A stretch of 64,000 bases of DNA from Sphingomonas sp. (GTDB lineage Bacteria > Pseudomonadota > Alphaproteobacteria > Sphingomonadales > Sphingomonadaceae): the NCBI RefSeq assembly GCF_017304615.1, contig NZ_JAFKLZ010000002.1, positions 496,001-560,000 of the forward strand. Direction: 5' to 3'. The position numbers and the translations under genes are program-made. This document shows positions 20,567-27,302 of this stretch, piece after piece (the stretch's first letter is position 1; every line of letters starts with the position of its first letter). Below the pieces are notes generated by a model. It was not told the origin of the DNA. It ran no database searches and was given only the letters and a program-made list of their open reading frames with translations.

Positions 20567-21493
20567 TCACAGCATGCGCTGGAGCGTCCGGTCGCGAAGG
20601 ATCAGCGCGTGATACAGCGCCCCCACGACGTGCAAGCCGATCAGGACGAGCAGTATGATGGCCGTCGTGGCATGCACGTCGCCCATCGAACGACCGAAAG
20701 CTGCGCCGGTCGGCACCAGCCGCGGAAGCGGGATCGCGCCGAACAGCGAGACGTCCCAGCCGCGCGCGTTCGCATTCGCCCAGCCCATGATGGGAAGCGC
20801 GATCAGCAGCAGATAGAGGCCGGCATGCGTGAGCCGGGACGTATGCGCCAGGATGACGGGAAGGTCGCTCGGGGCCGGCGGTGCCGGATGCAACATCCGC
20901 CAACCCAGGCGTGCCAACGCGATGACCAGAATCGTTGCGCCGATTGAAAGGTGCCATCCGACCAACCCGGTCGGACTGGTATTTCGCCCTATGTCCGGCA
21001 TCGTCCACGCGATGGCGAACTGTGCGACTATGAGGGCAACGACGGTCCAGTGGAACAGGCGCGCCGTTGCTGTGTAACGGTCGTCAGGCCGCGATGCCGC
21101 TGGTCGCGCCAGTGCAATGCCGGTCTCATCTCGCTTCCTGCTCATCGTAGATCCCTTTCTCAGCGGCAATCGAGCAGCCGGATCATTCTGGTCGGACGTC
21201 GTTCTCAGGGCTTCCGCCGTTCCGCCGCTTGTGTCGGCGATGATCGCATCGAGCTTTGCGCTGATTCTGTCGAAGCGTGCTCGTGACCGGGCGAGGACGA
21301 ACAGCGCATAGCAAATCGCGAGGACGGATAGCGCGATGCTCCCCGCAGACAGCTTGTGCGGATCCACCCCGGACAGCCCGGCGACGACTAGGCTTCCGCC
21401 AAGGATCGCAGCCATGATCGGGATCCAGACCGGCCGAAGCATTGCATGTCTTCGCTTACGGGACGGCCCCGGAAACTGGTTATCGTGGAACAC
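20567..21493 (-). CDS. Cytochrome b561-like protein with N-terminal 2-TM extension
   Basis: The C-terminal 192 residues (from the ATG at 21145, preceded by AAGGGATCTACG) form a four-helix di-haem cytochrome b561: YTATARLFHWTVVALIV, WHLSIGATILVIALAR, THAGLYLLLIALPIMGW and DVHATTAIILLVLIGLHVVGAL. The four histidine positions expected for two haems are present. The same frame continues upstream without a stop through a separate segment with two hydrophobic helices (IPIMAAILGGSLVVAGL and LSVLAICYALFVLARS) and a basic helix. This is either a true fusion or two genes read together. In bacteria, b561 proteins (CybB/SoxO) oxidise superoxide and reduce quinone. Next to a VIT transporter and upstream two-component system. 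Confidence 0.75.
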   Translation of the reverse strand: MFHDNQFPGPSRKRRHAMLRPVWIPIMAAILGGSLVVAGLSGVDPHKLSAGSIALSVLAICYALFVLARSRARFDRISAKLDAIIADTSGGTAEALRTTSDQNDPAARLPLRKGSTMSRKRDETGIALARPAASRPDDRYTATARLFHWTVVALIVAQFAIAWTMPDIGRNTSPTGLVGWHLSIGATILVIALARLGWRMLHPAPPAPSDLPVILAHTSRLTHAGLYLLLIALPIMGWANANARGWDVSLFGAIPLPRLVPTGAAFGRSMGDVHATTAIILLVLIGLHVVGALYHALILRDRTLQRML

Positions 21494-21523: not shown

Positions 21524-22234
21524 CTAGCCCGCGGCGACATGAAAGATGCGTCCGACGCCTGCGGTCGTTGCCATCGCCAGTGAGCCGAACAGGACGACGC
21601 GCACGATCGCGGCGGCAAGCGGTGCGCCGCCAGCTTTGGCGCCGGCCGCACCCAAGAGTGCCAGCGCGAAGATCGCGACGGCGGAAATTGCCCAGATTGC
21701 GCTCGCCTCTGCGACGAGGAGGACAGTCAGAAGGGGGACGATCCCGCCAGTGACGAACGACGCCGCCGAAGCGATTGCCGCTTGGGCCGGCCGAGCGATG
21801 CTGTGATCGCTGATACCCAATTCGTCGCGAAGATGTGCCTCGAGCGCTCCGTTTTCGGACAGGGCGTCCGCGACCTGCTCGGCCAAGGGATGTGGCAAGC
21901 CGCGATCGACGTAGATCGCGACCAGCTCGCGCCGCTCATATTCCGGATCTGCGAGATGCTCGCGACGTTCGCGCTCGATGTCCGCGTTCTCCGAGTCCGC
22001 CTGGGAGCTGACCGACACGTATTCGCCGGCGGCCATCGCCATCGCGCCTGCCGCGATCCCGGCGACACCGGTGAGAATGATCTGGCCCGGTGCCGCAGCG
22101 GCCGCCGCCACGCCAACCATCAGGCTCGAGGTGGAGAGCAGGCCATCGTTTGCGCCGAGGACTGCAGCTCGCAACCATCCGATGCGCGTCAGGAAATGCG
22201 CCTCGCCATGAGCCGCCGAATGTGATGTGGGCAT
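21524..22234 (-). CDS. VIT1/CCC1-family iron/manganese transporter
   Basis: The 236-residue protein starts at the ATG at 22232-22234 and shows the VIT layout: first helix WLRAAVLGANDGLLSTSSL, second TGVAGIAAGAMAMAAGEYVS, a cytoplasmic metal-binding linker rich in Glu (ADIERERREHLADPEYERREL), then three helices ending FGSLAMATTAGVGRIFH. VIT proteins move Fe2+/Mn2+ out of the cytoplasm (into a vacuole in eukaryotes; efflux in bacteria). It lies between the histidine kinase and the b561 gene on the same strand, and a degenerate copy of its C-terminal end occurs at 50346-50533. Confidence 0.88.
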   Translation of the reverse strand: MPTSHSAAHGEAHFLTRIGWLRAAVLGANDGLLSTSSLMVGVAAAAAAPGQIILTGVAGIAAGAMAMAAGEYVSVSSQADSENADIERERREHLADPEYERRELVAIYVDRGLPHPLAEQVADALSENGALEAHLRDELGISDHSIARPAQAAIASAASFVTGGIVPLLTVLLVAEASAIWAISAVAIFALALLGAAGAKAGGAPLAAAIVRVVLFGSLAMATTAGVGRIFHVAAG

Positions 22235-22301
22235 ATCCAACTTTGAGCTTTCCTTCGAGAATGATGGGCGCAGGGCCGGCACTCCTGCGCTGGGCGTCGG
22301 G

Positions 22302-23651
22302 CTATCCCGATTGCCAAGCACCTGTGGACGGAAGGCGCACGGTGAATTTCGCACCGCCGCCCTGGGCATTCTCGACCGAGATCGTGCCGCCATGTGCTTC
22401 GACGAGCCGTTGGACGATCCCCAGACCGAGGCCGGCGCCGTCCGACGCACGCCGATCCCTTCGCCAGAATCGCTCGAACAGGTGCGGCATGTCCTCGGCC
22501 GCGATGCCGATGCCGTAGTCGCGAACCGAAAGCTGCGGTCCCGGGCCGGCCGTCACGTCAACCGGCGTCGTGCCCGGTGCGTGCTTGAGGGCGTTGTCGA
22601 TCAGGTTGCGATAGATGCGGAACACCGCTTCGGCATGACCGACCGTCTGCGTATCGCCCCTGCTTTCGAACCGAAGCTCGCGGTGCTCCGCAAACGCCTT
22701 GGGCGCCATGGCGGCCACGACCTCGCGTCCGACGTCGGCCAGGTCGAACGGATTGTGCCCCGCGCTGGCGAGCGCGTCGGCTTGGGCCAGGTCGAGCATC
22801 TGTTCGACGAGCCTGGTCAAGTATCGCGCGTCTGCCTGCAGATCATCCCGGACCTTGCCCGCGGGCAGCCGGTCGAGCGATAATTGCATGATGGACAGCG
22901 GGGTGCGCAACTCGTGCGCGGCGTTCGCGGTGAAGCCGCGCAGTATCGCCAGAGTTCGGTCCAGCCGCGCCAACGCGCGGTTCACGGCGCGCACGAGCGT
23001 GTTGACCTCGCGGGGCGCGAGCGGTTCGGAAAGCCGCATGACGGCGTTGCCGGGATCCAGCGCATCGACCTCGAGCTCGGCGCGCCGCAATGGCTGGAGC
23101 ACGCGACGGACCGCGAAGACGTTGAAGAGGAGGAGAAGGAGCGACAGCGGGATCAGCGGGAGAAGCACGTGCTGGACGATTTCGTTCACGATGACGGGGA
23201 TGTAGGGCCGGATGCCATCCGCCTCGAATTGCATTGCGAGCCACCGTCGCTTGCCCCCGTCGTCGACCGCGCGCACGCCTGAGATGCGATAGCCGCGGGG
23301 TGCCGTTTCTCGCCGCGTCCAATCCACCAATGGCGACGCACCGTCGCGCGGGGTTCCCGGCATCGTAGGCTGGAGTTCGGGGGCGTCTGGCTCGACATAG
23401 CGTGCCGACCATTGCATGGCGCCCGGCGGTCCGGCGTGGAGCTCCGCAGGCAGTGCCGCCCCGGCCCCTGCCTTCGACGCTTCCAGGGTCAGAAGCTCCT
23501 CGGCGAGCGCCTCGGGTTGGCGGCTGTAGGTCACCACGACGATAGCCACGTCGAGCCCGGCGAACAGCAGCGTGAAGAGCGCCAGCCGAGTCGCGATCTG
23601 GCGAAATAGCGTCGGCCCGCCGCCACGCGCGCTGGGGACCGGCTCAACCAT
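22302..23651 (-). CDS. Sensor histidine kinase (two-component)
   Basis: The preferred start at 23651 (MVEPVPSARG) overlaps the response-regulator stop by 8 bases. The 449-residue protein has an N-terminal membrane helix (LALFTLLFAGLDVAIVVV), a periplasmic sensor of about 110 residues, a second helix (LPLIPLSLLLLLFNVFAV), HAMP-like linker, the H box ANAAHELRTPLSIMQL, and a catalytic domain with N box IYRNLIDNALKHAP, G1 LSVRDYGIGI and G2 DGAGLGLGIVQRLV. It phosphorylates the adjacent OmpR-type regulator. The signal is unknown, but katG lies divergently upstream of the operon. Confidence 0.92.
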   Translation of the reverse strand: MVEPVPSARGGGPTLFRQIATRLALFTLLFAGLDVAIVVVTYSRQPEALAEELLTLEASKAGAGAALPAELHAGPPGAMQWSARYVEPDAPELQPTMPGTPRDGASPLVDWTRRETAPRGYRISGVRAVDDGGKRRWLAMQFEADGIRPYIPVIVNEIVQHVLLPLIPLSLLLLLFNVFAVRRVLQPLRRAELEVDALDPGNAVMRLSEPLAPREVNTLVRAVNRALARLDRTLAILRGFTANAAHELRTPLSIMQLSLDRLPAGKVRDDLQADARYLTRLVEQMLDLAQADALASAGHNPFDLADVGREVVAAMAPKAFAEHRELRFESRGDTQTVGHAEAVFRIYRNLIDNALKHAPGTTPVDVTAGPGPQLSVRDYGIGIAAEDMPHLFERFWRRDRRASDGAGLGLGIVQRLVEAHGGTISVENAQGGGAKFTVRLPSTGAWQSG

Positions 23652-24330
23652 CGGCGGGCGTCGGCGCGAAGAGCGCGTAACCCACACCGTGGACCGTGCG
23701 AACCCTTACGTCCGCGCCCGCTGCCGCCAGCCGTTTACGCAGCCGCGAGACTGACGCCTCCAGCGCATTGGGCGTCACCTCGGCATCCATGGAGTAGAGA
23801 GCGTTTTCCAGCGTCGGCTTGGCGACGACCATTCCCGCACGCCGAAGCAGCGCCTCGAGCAGATCGACTTCCCGCGGCGAGGCCTCGACTGGTCGGCCGG
23901 CGATGACAACCGACCGGACGGTCGAATCGAACAATACGTTTCCCGCGGCCAATTGGACACCGAGCGAGGCACCCGGACGGCGCAGCAAGGCGCGGCATCG
24001 CGCCGCCAGCTCGGGAATTTGGAACGGTTTGACCAGATAGTCGTCGGCGCCGGCATCGAGCCCGTTCACCCGGTCGTCGAGGCCACCCCGCGCCGTCAGA
24101 ACAAGGATCGGGACGGCATTTTTCTGCTGTCGCACGTTGCGGACCAAGTTGAGCCCGTCGCCGTCGGGCAAGCCCAGATCGAGCAGCATGAGGTCGTAGA
24201 CGGCGATTTTCAACGCCAGTTCCGCTCCTTCGATCGTTTCATACCAATCGACGGCGAAGCCTTGCCGATCCAGTCCCTCGCGGATCAAGCTGGCAAGCCT
24301 CGCATTGTCCTCAATGAGCAGCAGGCGCAT
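23644..24330 (-). CDS. OmpR/PhoB-family response regulator
   Basis: The 228-residue regulator has a receiver domain with the phospho-acceptor in YDLMLLDLGLPDGDG (near residue 51), the conserved Thr in ILVLTARGGLDDRV and Lys in YLVKPFQIPELAAR. The C-terminal winged helix includes LLEALLRRAGMVVAKPTL and VSRLRKRLAAAGADVRVRTVHGVGY-like (seen in parts). It probably binds the GTCAG direct repeats at 24688-24703 and 24744-24759, which flank the divergent katG. Confidence 0.93.
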   Translation of the reverse strand: MRLLLIEDNARLASLIREGLDRQGFAVDWYETIEGAELALKIAVYDLMLLDLGLPDGDGLNLVRNVRQQKNAVPILVLTARGGLDDRVNGLDAGADDYLVKPFQIPELAARCRALLRRPGASLGVQLAAGNVLFDSTVRSVVIAGRPVEASPREVDLLEALLRRAGMVVAKPTLENALYSMDAEVTPNALEASVSRLRKRLAAAGADVRVRTVHGVGYALFAPTPADG

Positions 24331-24332
24331 GG

Positions 24333-24635
24333 CTACCGTGGGTTCCAGTGGAGGGCCGCTTGTAGGCCATTGGCGGACGACTTGGGAGATCCGTGCAGGC
24401 GTTGATCGTCGAGGTCGGTGCGGCCGACGCCGAGCGAAGTCGTCGCGACGCCACTACCTATCCGCATCCGGAGCGGCTTGGGCGTCTCGTCACCGCCCCG
24501 CAACGCAAGGCCTCCGGTCGTCGCGTCGGGATGCGGCGTCTGCGACAACCCCCCGGCCACAACGCCACTGGCCGGCTCAAGAGGACCGTAGCCACCGTGG
24601 TGAAGATCGTTCGCGCCGCGAGGATAGTTAGGCAT
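24333..24635 (-). CDS. Small hypothetical protein upstream of response regulator
   Basis: The ATG at 24633-24635 is preceded by AAGGAAGCTG, a good ribosome binding site. The 100-residue product is Gly/Leu/Thr-rich with no signal or membrane segment (MPNYPRGANDLHHGGYGPLE, then TTGGLALRGGDETPKPLRMR). Its stop codon is 2 bases before the response-regulator start, so the two are coupled. Not recognised. Repeats at 24688-24759 lie just upstream, so it would be the first gene of the autoregulated operon. Confidence 0.45.
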   Translation of the reverse strand: MPNYPRGANDLHHGGYGPLEPASGVVAGGLSQTPHPDATTGGLALRGGDETPKPLRMRIGSGVATTSLGVGRTDLDDQRLHGSPKSSANGLQAALHWNPR

Positions 24636-24687
24636 CAGCTTCCTTCGAGGGCGTGATCGCACACCGCTGTCGCGCTGACAGCATTAT

Positions 24688-24703
24688 CTGACCAAAACCT
24701 GAC
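24688..24703 (-). promoter_or_regulatory. Direct repeat for response regulator (CTGAC, 11-base spacing)
   Basis: Two CTGAC half sites at 24688-24692 and 24699-24703, start-to-start 11 bases, as for OmpR/PhoB-family dimers on successive turns of the helix. A third CTGAC lies at 24675-24679. Read on the minus strand they are GTCAG repeats oriented toward the two-component operon. Confidence 0.65.
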
Positions 24704-24743
24704 GGTTGAGCGAGCCCAGTAAAAACAGGCGCTGCAGCGGTTC

Positions 24744-24759
24744 GTCAGGTTCGCGTCAG
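24744..24759 (+). promoter_or_regulatory. Direct repeat for response regulator (GTCAG, 11-base spacing)
   Basis: Two GTCAG half sites at 24744-24748 and 24755-24759, the same spacing as the pair at 24688-24703 but in the opposite orientation, facing katG. The two pairs together suggest one regulator controls both divergent transcripts. Confidence 0.65.
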
Positions 24760-25088
24760 AACTGAGGCCGATAGGACGGACGTCGCTGTTCGGGCGGCAG
24801 GGAGTTCTGCAATGGTCTTGCGCGAACGGCAGACGCCCGACGATGTGTTCATGCCGCAAGGAACACGGCAATCAGGCTGCGCTGGCGCCTCTCCCCGTTC
24901 GGGCGCCAGCCGCAGGCGTCGGTCGGCCTCTCACCCCCCGAGGCCGGCCGGCGCCTCTCACTCGCGAAATCCCTGCGGAGGCGGTCTTGGTCGCACCTAG
25001 AGCCAAGCCCCTGCGAACTGCGCGCCGGAACCGCTCGCAACGGTGCCAGCGCGTAGCAATCTGCCTCTACTCTACTGGAGATATCGAC
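24760..25088. other. katG upstream region
   Basis: About 330 bases between the response-regulator repeats and the katG start. Open in the katG frame from 24843 but Arg/Pro/Cys-rich without resemblance to a catalase domain, so taken as leader. No clear -35/-10 pair is called. Confidence 0.4.
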
Positions 25089-27302
25089 ATGCCAAGGGCT
25101 CGCTTGACCATCGCAATCCTCTGCTCGACCGCAGTCTTGGCGCTAGCCGTCACCAGCCCGGTCTCGGCCCAGGTCGAAGGCAAGACCAACCAGCAGTGGT
25201 TCCCCGACCTGCTGGATCTCAGCCCGCTCCGCCAGGATGCTGCGAAGTCAGATCCAATGGGCGGCGACTACGATTATCGGCGGCAGGTCGAGACGCTCGA
25301 TGTTGCGGCGTTGAAGAAGGACATCGGGAAGGTTCTGACGACGTCGCAGCCTTGGTGGCCGTCAGACTATGGCAACTATGGGCCGTTCTTCATTCGAATG
25401 GCGTGGCACAGCGCCGGGACCTATCGGCAGGCCGACGGCCGGGGTGGCGCCGGCGGGGCGCAACAGCGTTTCGAGCCGCTCAATAGCTGGCCCGACAATG
25501 TAAATCTCGACAAGGCGCGGCGCCTGCTTTGGCCGATAAAGCAGAAATACGGGTCGAAGATCAGCTGGTCTGATCTGATGGAGCTGACCGGGAACGTCTC
25601 CCTCGAGCAGATGGGATTCAAGACGCTCGGCTTCGCCTTCGGCCGTCGCGACGAGTGGGAGGCGGACCAGACCTACTGGGGTCCTGAGACGAAGATGCTG
25701 GCCGATCGGCGCCACACCGCGCCCGGCGTCATCAAGAAGCCGCTAGCCGCGTCGCAGATGGGACTCATCTATGTCAATCCGGAAGGCCCGAACGGGACGC
25801 CCGACCCGCTTGCCGCCGCGAAGGAAATTCGCGCCACCTTTGGCAACATGGGTATGAACGACGAGGAGACTGTCGCCCTGATCGCGGGTGGGCACACGTT
25901 CGGCAAGGCGCACGGCGCCCGCCCCAAGACGTGCGTCGGGGATGCGCCGAGCGCGGCCGGTATCGAGAAGCAGGGCCTGGGCTGGGAAAGCGGGTGCGGG
26001 ACGGGAACAGGGGCTGACGCGGTGGGCTCGGGACTGGAAGGCGCCTGGACCAGTCAGCCAGCCAAGTTCACCCACGAGTATCTGTCGAACCTGTTCGATA
26101 ACGACTGGGTGTTGACGAAGAGCCCGGCCGGGGCCAGCCAGTGGCGACCCAAGGTTCTGTCGGCAAGCACGATGACGCCAGATGCCACGGACCCGTCCAG
26201 GAAGCATCCGTTGATGATGTTCACCACCGATCTGGCGCTCAAGATGGACCCCACGTATCGGGCGATCGCATTGCGCTACAAGAACGATCCGACGGCGTTC
26301 GACAAGGCCTGGGCGGCGGCGTGGTTCAAGCTGATCCACCGCGATATGGGCCCGCGACGTTTCTATCTCGGCAACGAGATCCCGGCGCAGGAATTTTCCT
26401 GGCAGGATCCCCTCCCCGCAGCGCCCGGCAAGGTCATAGGCGACGCCGAGGTCAAGCGTATCAAGAGGATGGTCCTCGATTCGGGGGTCAGCGACGCGGC
26501 GCTCATCAGGACCGCTTGGGCCTCCGCCGCGAGCTACCGCAAGACCGACATGCGGGGTGGCGCGAACGGCGGGCGCGTGCGGCTCGAGCCGCAAATCCAC
26601 TGGCTCGCGAATTCTCCGCAAGAACTCGTGGCTGTGCTGCAACGGCTCGCGGTCATCCGACAGGACTTCAACCGCGACGGCGGGCCGGACGTGTCGCTCG
26701 CGGATTTGATCGTCCTCGCCGGCGACGCCGCGATCGAACATGCGGCCGCAGAACGCGGTTTCAAGGTCGATGTGCCGTTCGTCGCCGGGCGGGTAGATGC
26801 GACGCAAGAGCAGACCGACATCAGCGGATATACGGCGATGGAACCCACGGCCGACGGCTTCCGCAATTATTACGATCCAGCCGACAGGCTTTCACCGACC
26901 GATGCCTTGGTCGAGCGCGCTTATTTGCTCGACCTGTCGGTTCCGGAGATGACAGTGCTGGTCGGCGGAATGCGCGCGTTGAGCGCCAATTCGGGCAACT
27001 CGTCCGTCGGGGTGCTGACGACCCGGCCGGGCACGCTGAGCAACGACTTTTTCGTCAACCTGCTCGACATGCGGACCGTCTGGACGAAGTCGACGACAAG
27101 CCCGGCGCTCTACGAAGGCAGGGATCGCGCCTCGGGTCGGATGCGATGGACAGCGTCGCCCGTCGACTTGATCTTCGGGTCCAACTCCGAACTTCGCGCT
27201 GTTGCCGAGGTCTATGCCCAGGACGACGCCCAGCAGAAATTCGTGACGGACTTCGTCATCGCGTGGAACAAGGTCATGAACAATGATCTCCGACCCAGAT
27301 AG
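25089..27302 (+). CDS. katG: Catalase-peroxidase KatG with signal peptide (periplasmic)
   Basis: The ATG at 25089 has GGAG 8 bases upstream. The 737-residue product starts with a signal peptide ([20 protein letters not shown]...VSA, cleavage near residue 27) and then the full two-domain KatG. Distal haem residues Arg103, Trp106 and His107 lie in [14 protein letters not shown], the crosslink tyrosine in [10 protein letters not shown], the crosslink Met in [13 protein letters not shown] and the proximal His in [12 protein letters not shown]. The C-terminal domain ([11 protein letters not shown] onward) is the usual haem-less repeat. It removes H2O2, here in the periplasm, so it protects the envelope. 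Divergent from the two-component operon. Confidence 0.95.

Follow-up and report, generated by a model that had tools for sequence, protein, structure and literature searches.

A conserved divergent pair of GTCAG repeats as predicted operators of a two-component system beside an exported KatG in Sphingomonas

In a 64,000-nucleotide stretch of a Sphingomonas sp. genome (RefSeq assembly GCF_017304615.1, contig NZ_JAFKLZ010000002.1, positions 496,001–560,000; hereafter, the window), a two-component operon and the catalase-peroxidase gene katG flank a short region carrying two divergent copies of the motif GTCAG-N6-GTCAG. The original prediction for this DNA, made from the sequence alone, had described two CTGAC and two GTCAG sites, each repeating at 11 bases and facing away from each other; a motif scan of the 64 kb locates both pairs where they were placed, 40 bases apart (Table 1). 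The description of the flanks also held: Pfam domains identify a two-component operon on one side and katG on the other, with the katG export signal read by eye. The reading that we favor, at a probability of roughly 0.83, is that each repeat pair is an operator for the neighboring response regulator, which would thereby regulate its own operon.

Table 1. Positions of the repeats, associated bases and genes in the window (position 1 is its first nucleotide).
Feature	Positions	Strand	Basis or remarks
Putative operator facing the regulator operon, GTCAGGTTTTGGTCAG	24688–24703	-	Exact match; ortholog counterpart is the PepSY-b561-regulator-kinase promoter
Putative operator facing katG, GTCAGGTTCGCGTCAG	24744–24759	+	Exact match; ortholog counterpart is the rubrerythrin promoter
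A, 11 bases past the left operator; predicted position -11, in the -10 element of the regulator operon	24676	-	A conserved at regulatory sites
A, 11 bases past the right operator; predicted position -11, in the -10 element of katG	24771	+	A conserved at regulatory sites
OmpR/PhoB-family response regulator, PmrA/QseB-like; proposed operator binder	23644–24330	-	Pfam; best NCBIfam matches below cut-off; solved relatives BasR/PmrA
Sensor histidine kinase (HisKA/HATPase), start codon uncertain	22302–23687	-	
VIT-family (Fe/Mn transporter-like) membrane protein, start uncertain	21524–22270	-	Pfam VIT1
Cytochrome b561 frame, start uncertain	20567–21445	-	PF01292
Small open reading frame (ORF), 100 amino acids, AAGGAAG ribosome-site-like stretch, in the ortholog PepSY position; coding status uncertain	24333–24635	-	
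Catalase-peroxidase KatG, N-terminal signal peptide by eye (...PVSA|QVEG)	25089–27302	+	

Within the window, the two pairs are the only exact matches to GTCAG-N6-GTCAG (0.14 expected), and two of 100 shuffles of the window also reached two matches. Sites with one mismatch occur at chance level (6 found, 4.3 expected). The excess in the window is, by itself, modest evidence; it is the comparative evidence that decides. The strain's own genome (3.34 Mb) carries ten exact matches, and the two in the window form its sole close divergent pair. All eight others overlap ORFs of at least 100 amino acids in a mechanical ORF list; by our judgment, seven of them fall inside likely genes or at their ends, and one (L113; L and G numbers denote loci and genomes) is intergenic. 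With seven of the eight apparently placed in this way, a wide regulon built on the exact motif is not supported in this strain.

The comparison was made at 22 loci of named records (L031–L052) whose kinases are 65–78% identical to that of the window. These are mostly Sphingomonas, with two Novosphingobium, one Sphingomonadales metagenome-assembled genome, and two records that carry the names Thioclava and Mesorhizobium; in the genus, a kinase at 65% identity or above is carried by 9 of 101 sampled genomes, the window's own included. The regulatory gap is assembled on both sides at 20 of the 22, which give 21 gaps (L048 has two) and 15 distinct sequences. L032, cut inside the regulator, and L045, in which a deletion took one side and left one site, were not counted. 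The original prediction had named absence of the repeats at orthologous loci as the outcome that would speak against it; when this was looked for, the divergent pair was present in all 21 assembled gaps. When the 15 distinct gaps are aligned, 32 of 221 columns are invariant, and these include every one of the 20 half-site columns. The same motif emerges when none is preset: GTCAG (on either strand) with a period of 11 is the only combination of 5-mer and period (6–30) present in all 16 gaps compared, including the window. In a spacing control, the 22 loci (255 kb) contain 62 matches at N6 and at most 5 at any other spacing from N0 to N20, while 57 loci of distant kinases (614 kb) contain one match at N6. 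Some genomes carry several copies of the operator-regulator locus (two in L048; three divergent pairs in G002), which suggests duplication or spread on mobile DNA.

A second constant feature lies outside the repeats. All 63 distinct regulatory sites have an A at +27—11 bases past the second GTCAG—compared with 4 of 11 controls. The 63 comprise (i) 41 of 41 sites from the ortholog loci and the window, (ii) 9 of 9 from a second lineage described below, and (iii) those from a signature search, also described below, in which 16 of 16 sites have the A, 13 of them outside the first set. The A was not used in choosing sites, and A makes up 18% of the bases around them. Sites were classed as regulatory by hand, from their location, before the A was examined; L032 (its site identical to the third site of L033) and L002–L009 were left out. 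Among the controls with an A, L037:2750 is next to a kinase fragment and is possibly a real site. The 63 sites are related by descent, and so are not 63 independent draws, and they span rubrerythrin, PepSY, VIT/b561, katG, regulator and efflux promoters. This base is most naturally read as the A at position -11 of a -10 element. The operator would then occupy about -38 to -23 and overlap the -35 region, and the predicted transcription start sites are near 24782 (+) and 24665 (-). A scan for sigma-70-like promoters found none in 24600–25100, and shuffled sequences likewise give about none, so that the scan carries little information. On the regulator side there is also a third GTCAG (24675–24679, -), whose A is the +27 base, so that a half-site sequence overlaps the predicted -10 element.

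At the usual ortholog locus, the two sites face, on one side, a rubrerythrin gene (with an export signal, by eye) and, on the other, a series encoding a PepSY_2 protein, a cytochrome b561, the regulator and the kinase, followed by a third site and a second b561 and/or VIT-family gene. Of the 18 ortholog loci with VIT downstream of the kinase, 17 have the third site between the two genes and L031 does not; in the window, kinase and VIT are adjacent, with no site between them. Searches of the window's genome for the rubrerythrin, the PepSY protein and the first b561 gave no match at E ≤ 0.001, and the same searches found each of the three in two control relatives. Both operators have thus been retained through a change in the genes adjoining them. 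The window has the divergent pair beside the regulator operon and the A at +27, and has neither rubrerythrin nor PepSY-b561 at the sites. Its katG sits at the rubrerythrin promoter position. Within the flanks covered, katG is found at the operon in the window and in one of the 22 ortholog loci, L031, where the left site is followed by rubrerythrin and then by a katG 84% identical to that of the window; the usual partner is the exported rubrerythrin. Over the 24 bases past the site, the katG promoter shares 10–15 places with rubrerythrin promoters, against 4–12 with the other promoters used for comparison. The ranges overlap, and the likeness is suggestive rather than conclusive.

The pair was also sought across genomes as a DNA signature alone, without reference to any protein. 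The permitted gap between sites (31–61) was chosen from known loci, and so narrower pairs (L046, 28) are missed. The signature occurs in 9 of 397 genomes of the family, with none for a backward control, and all nine matches lie directly beside a response-regulator gene; eight of these genes are orthologs of the window regulator (its own included). Some matches are probably of the same species as ortholog loci, and 3 of the 16 sites from other genomes repeat sequences already counted. In a class-wide sample of 385 genomes, the signature appears in the window's own genome only. Of the nine kinase-bearing genomes of the genus, eight carry a close divergent pair (in G098, on a different contig from that of the kinase), and in G062 the deleted form leaves a single site; the pair is seen in none of eight kinase-negative genomes. 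Single exact matches number 6–16 in eight kinase-bearing genomes, 5–8 in three genomes of the second lineage and 0–11 in the kinase-negative ones.

That second lineage, with regulators 50–53% and kinases 36–39% identical to those of the window, has the same GTCAG sites. G096 (L148) has four, before an exported katG, VIT, b561-regulator-kinase and a CzcB-like RND adaptor. Two sites of G010 flank its regulator-kinase pair (L162), and another, placed between VIT and an exported katG, faces VIT (L149); in G021 (L150), sites lie ahead of the regulator and a CzcB-like adaptor. Among 30 katG loci examined, a site falls within the flanks covered in three (the window's own, L120 and L122) and in none of the other 27. 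By eye, 25 of these 27 have N-termini that look cytosolic, and two (L119 and L121) are possibly exported.

The proteins themselves allow some closer description. The regulator contains PF00072 (Response_reg) and PF00486 (Trans_reg_C) above cut-off, and hence has the receiver/winged-helix architecture of the OmpR/PhoB family. Such regulators recognize direct repeats with a period of about 11 bp, the period of the conserved repeats seen here. None of the 25 NCBIfam families shown reaches its curated cut-off for this protein: the best, the PmrA/BasR equivalog NF007928, scores 197.3 bits against a cut-off of 330, and TIGR01387 (heavy-metal CzcR/SilR/CopR) 159.3 against 279.2. Its best solved relatives are BasR/PmrA. 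Two hydrophobic segments are seen in the kinase, along with a periplasmic stretch of ~110 residues (about residues 57–168), in which many residues are invariant among 14 aligned orthologs; its best NCBIfam matches are CzcS/CopS-like, below curated cut-offs. The predicted structure of this sensor domain is weak (mean pLDDT 64), and the fold too uncertain to name. KatG exceeds the cut-offs of both NF011635 (1131.7 bits; 981) and TIGR00198 (1000.1; 770.25). A second katG, 55% identical, lies elsewhere in the same genome (G000 C1:248241–250334), and so the exported KatG is not the sole catalase-peroxidase. The b561 protein scores 66.1 bits with NF008566 (CybB type), below the cut-off of 170; its frame 20567–21490 (-) has more than 100 extra N-terminal residues that resemble a separate small membrane protein, making an internal start ahead of the b561 domain likely. 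The small ORF matches no Pfam family and lacks a homolog in the ortholog and related loci compared.

Together, these features suggest the following circuit. A dimer of the phosphorylated regulator would occupy each GTCAG-N6-GTCAG, one half-site per subunit, on the same face of the helix. Bound at about -38 to -23, the regulator would replace the -35 contact and bring RNA polymerase to the -10 element, 11 bases farther on, acting as an activator rather than a repressor. From the left operator it would activate its own putative operon (regulator-kinase-VIT-b561), and from the right, the exported KatG. The window may then hold a pared-down version of a Sphingomonadaceae regulon that would normally drive exported rubrerythrin, PepSY, cytochrome b561 and VIT, and whose role would be envelope iron/oxidant handling. 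Candidate signals include iron or another metal, peroxide, and the membrane redox state. The genes neighboring the sites (rubrerythrin or KatG, b561, PepSY, VIT and, in relatives, metal efflux) point to iron/metal plus oxidant stress of the envelope. The original idea of one regulon tying the kinase to periplasmic peroxide defense is accordingly supported as regards the regulon, by the orthologs and by the exported katG of L148 with its upstream site; "peroxide defense" is probably too narrow, because sites also precede VIT, PepSY-b561 and metal-efflux genes in relatives.

Several observations weigh against this reading. Firstly, the implied katG leader, at ~307 bases, is long. Secondly, single matches discriminate poorly between kinase-bearing and kinase-negative genomes (a backward control gives 0–7), and only 3 of 31 segments of 500 bases upstream of regulators contain a site; the latter arises because the PepSY and b561 genes intervene in orthologs, placing the sites ~1 kb upstream. 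Thirdly, the ninth signature match (L157) adjoins a regulator only 46% identical to that of the window, with PAP2-family and PepSY_TM genes on its other side, and several regulators may share the GTCAG motif. Fourthly, no site lies in the flanks of the possibly exported katG genes of L119 and L121, although the genome of L121, G068, carries the kinase; a further katG in G068 (L151), ~8 kb from the regulator on the same contig, also has no site nearby. Finally, a PDB fold search with the sensor domain gave no match at E ≤ 0.001, the best being a CitA domain at E 0.1.

The most probable alternative concerns the signal, and is compatible with the operator reading: the kinase may respond primarily to a metal (iron, manganese, copper or zinc), with KatG and rubrerythrin as secondary protection. 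We put this at about even odds with peroxide. The near-constant site between kinase and VIT (17 of 18 loci), the CzcB/RND adaptor behind a site in L148 and L150, and the PmrA and CzcS/CopS-like best family matches of regulator and kinase, sub-threshold as they are, all favor a metal. Conversely, the conserved neighbors of the divergent pair encode redox or ferritin-like proteins (rubrerythrin, b561), and the sensor domain, with its weak model, is without a demonstrated metal site.

It is unlikely, though not negligibly so, that katG is a mere passenger, left behind an old promoter by loss of rubrerythrin and expressed from it without selective meaning. The rubrerythrin-katG order under one site in L031 is what such a history would start from—the window resembles it with rubrerythrin lost—and katG is otherwise rare at the operon. 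However, the katG side has retained both the operator and the fixed A, its 24 downstream bases agree better with rubrerythrin promoters (allowing for the overlap in ranges), and the exported katG of L148 has a site of its own, even if the site beside the exported katG of L149 faces VIT.

A little less probable still is that the operators belong to a different, related OmpR-family regulator, or are shared by several, with the neighboring regulator at most one user. This would accommodate the same divergent pair at the 46%-identical regulator of L157, the same sites in the second lineage and the exact single matches in kinase-negative genomes. The pair at L157 (1501–1587) faces the PAP2-family and PepSY_TM genes, and the locus may mark another regulon that uses this DNA code. 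Against a foreign or shared regulator stands the linkage: the pair adjoins a regulator gene in nine of nine signature matches, eight of them orthologs, and is absent as a close divergent pair from all eight kinase-negative genomes. Chance repeats, to which the two shuffles in 100 might point, are ruled out by the invariant half-sites of the orthologs, the N6 spacing control, the signature search and the invariant A at +27.

If the operator reading is correct, a bare motif becomes a regulon for which operators, the -10 position, start sites and targets are predicted at base level, and in which exported KatG, rubrerythrin, cytochrome b561 and VIT transporters are tied into one envelope circuit, and operators outlive the genes that adjoin them in relatives. 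More tentatively, and with slightly less than an even chance of being right, we propose a dedicated two-component regulon of the Sphingomonadaceae for oxidant and iron defense of the envelope, with (i) a self-contained code, GTCAG-N6-GTCAG-N11-A, (ii) a new type of periplasmic sensor, and (iii) outputs (rubrerythrin, KatG, b561, VIT and metal efflux) that are swapped around fixed operators. Some b561 proteins act as superoxide oxidases, and the b561/PepSY redox proteins could possibly feed back on the sensor. In the open-access literature searched, most subscription papers being outside its scope, no paper contained any of the motif strings tried, and the results listed for the gene combination concerned other topics; the operator, the regulon and the turnover of outputs appear to be new, and the regulon is apparently undescribed.

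An OmpR-family regulator acting through tandem repeats over the -35 region is a well-known kind of system. PmrA acts in this -35-overlapping mode, with an operator and targets that differ from those of the window system. PmrAB/BasRS provides the best NCBIfam match and the best solved relatives of the window regulator, which falls well below the curated cut-off of that family (197.3 against 330 bits). The BqsRS system of Pseudomonas aeruginosa responds to ferrous iron through the operator TTAAG(N)6TTAAG, one pentamer serving both regulator and RNA polymerase (PMC4682146). The arrangement is alike in its pair of pentamers 6 bases apart, and the -35-overlapping geometry predicted here is comparable to that of BqsR promoters as set out there; the window has GTCAG rather than TTAAG, and so does not contain the BqsR operator (PMC4682146). 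Further, exact sites are few here compared with the hundreds predicted for BqsR, and rubrerythrin, KatG and b561 lie beside them. UzcRS of Caulobacter crescentus (uranium, zinc and copper) is an alphaproteobacterial metal-responsive two-component system (PMC11870441, PMC10133563). The comparison with the present system is one of kind, and the two motifs may have some similarity. MbfA proteins combine a ferritin with a VIT part. In Bradyrhizobium, MbfA is an iron exporter that protects against iron and H2O2 (PMC4902296). In the system described here, rubrerythrin and VIT are instead encoded separately, each gene with a site of one and the same type nearby, and the rubrerythrin has an export signal by eye.
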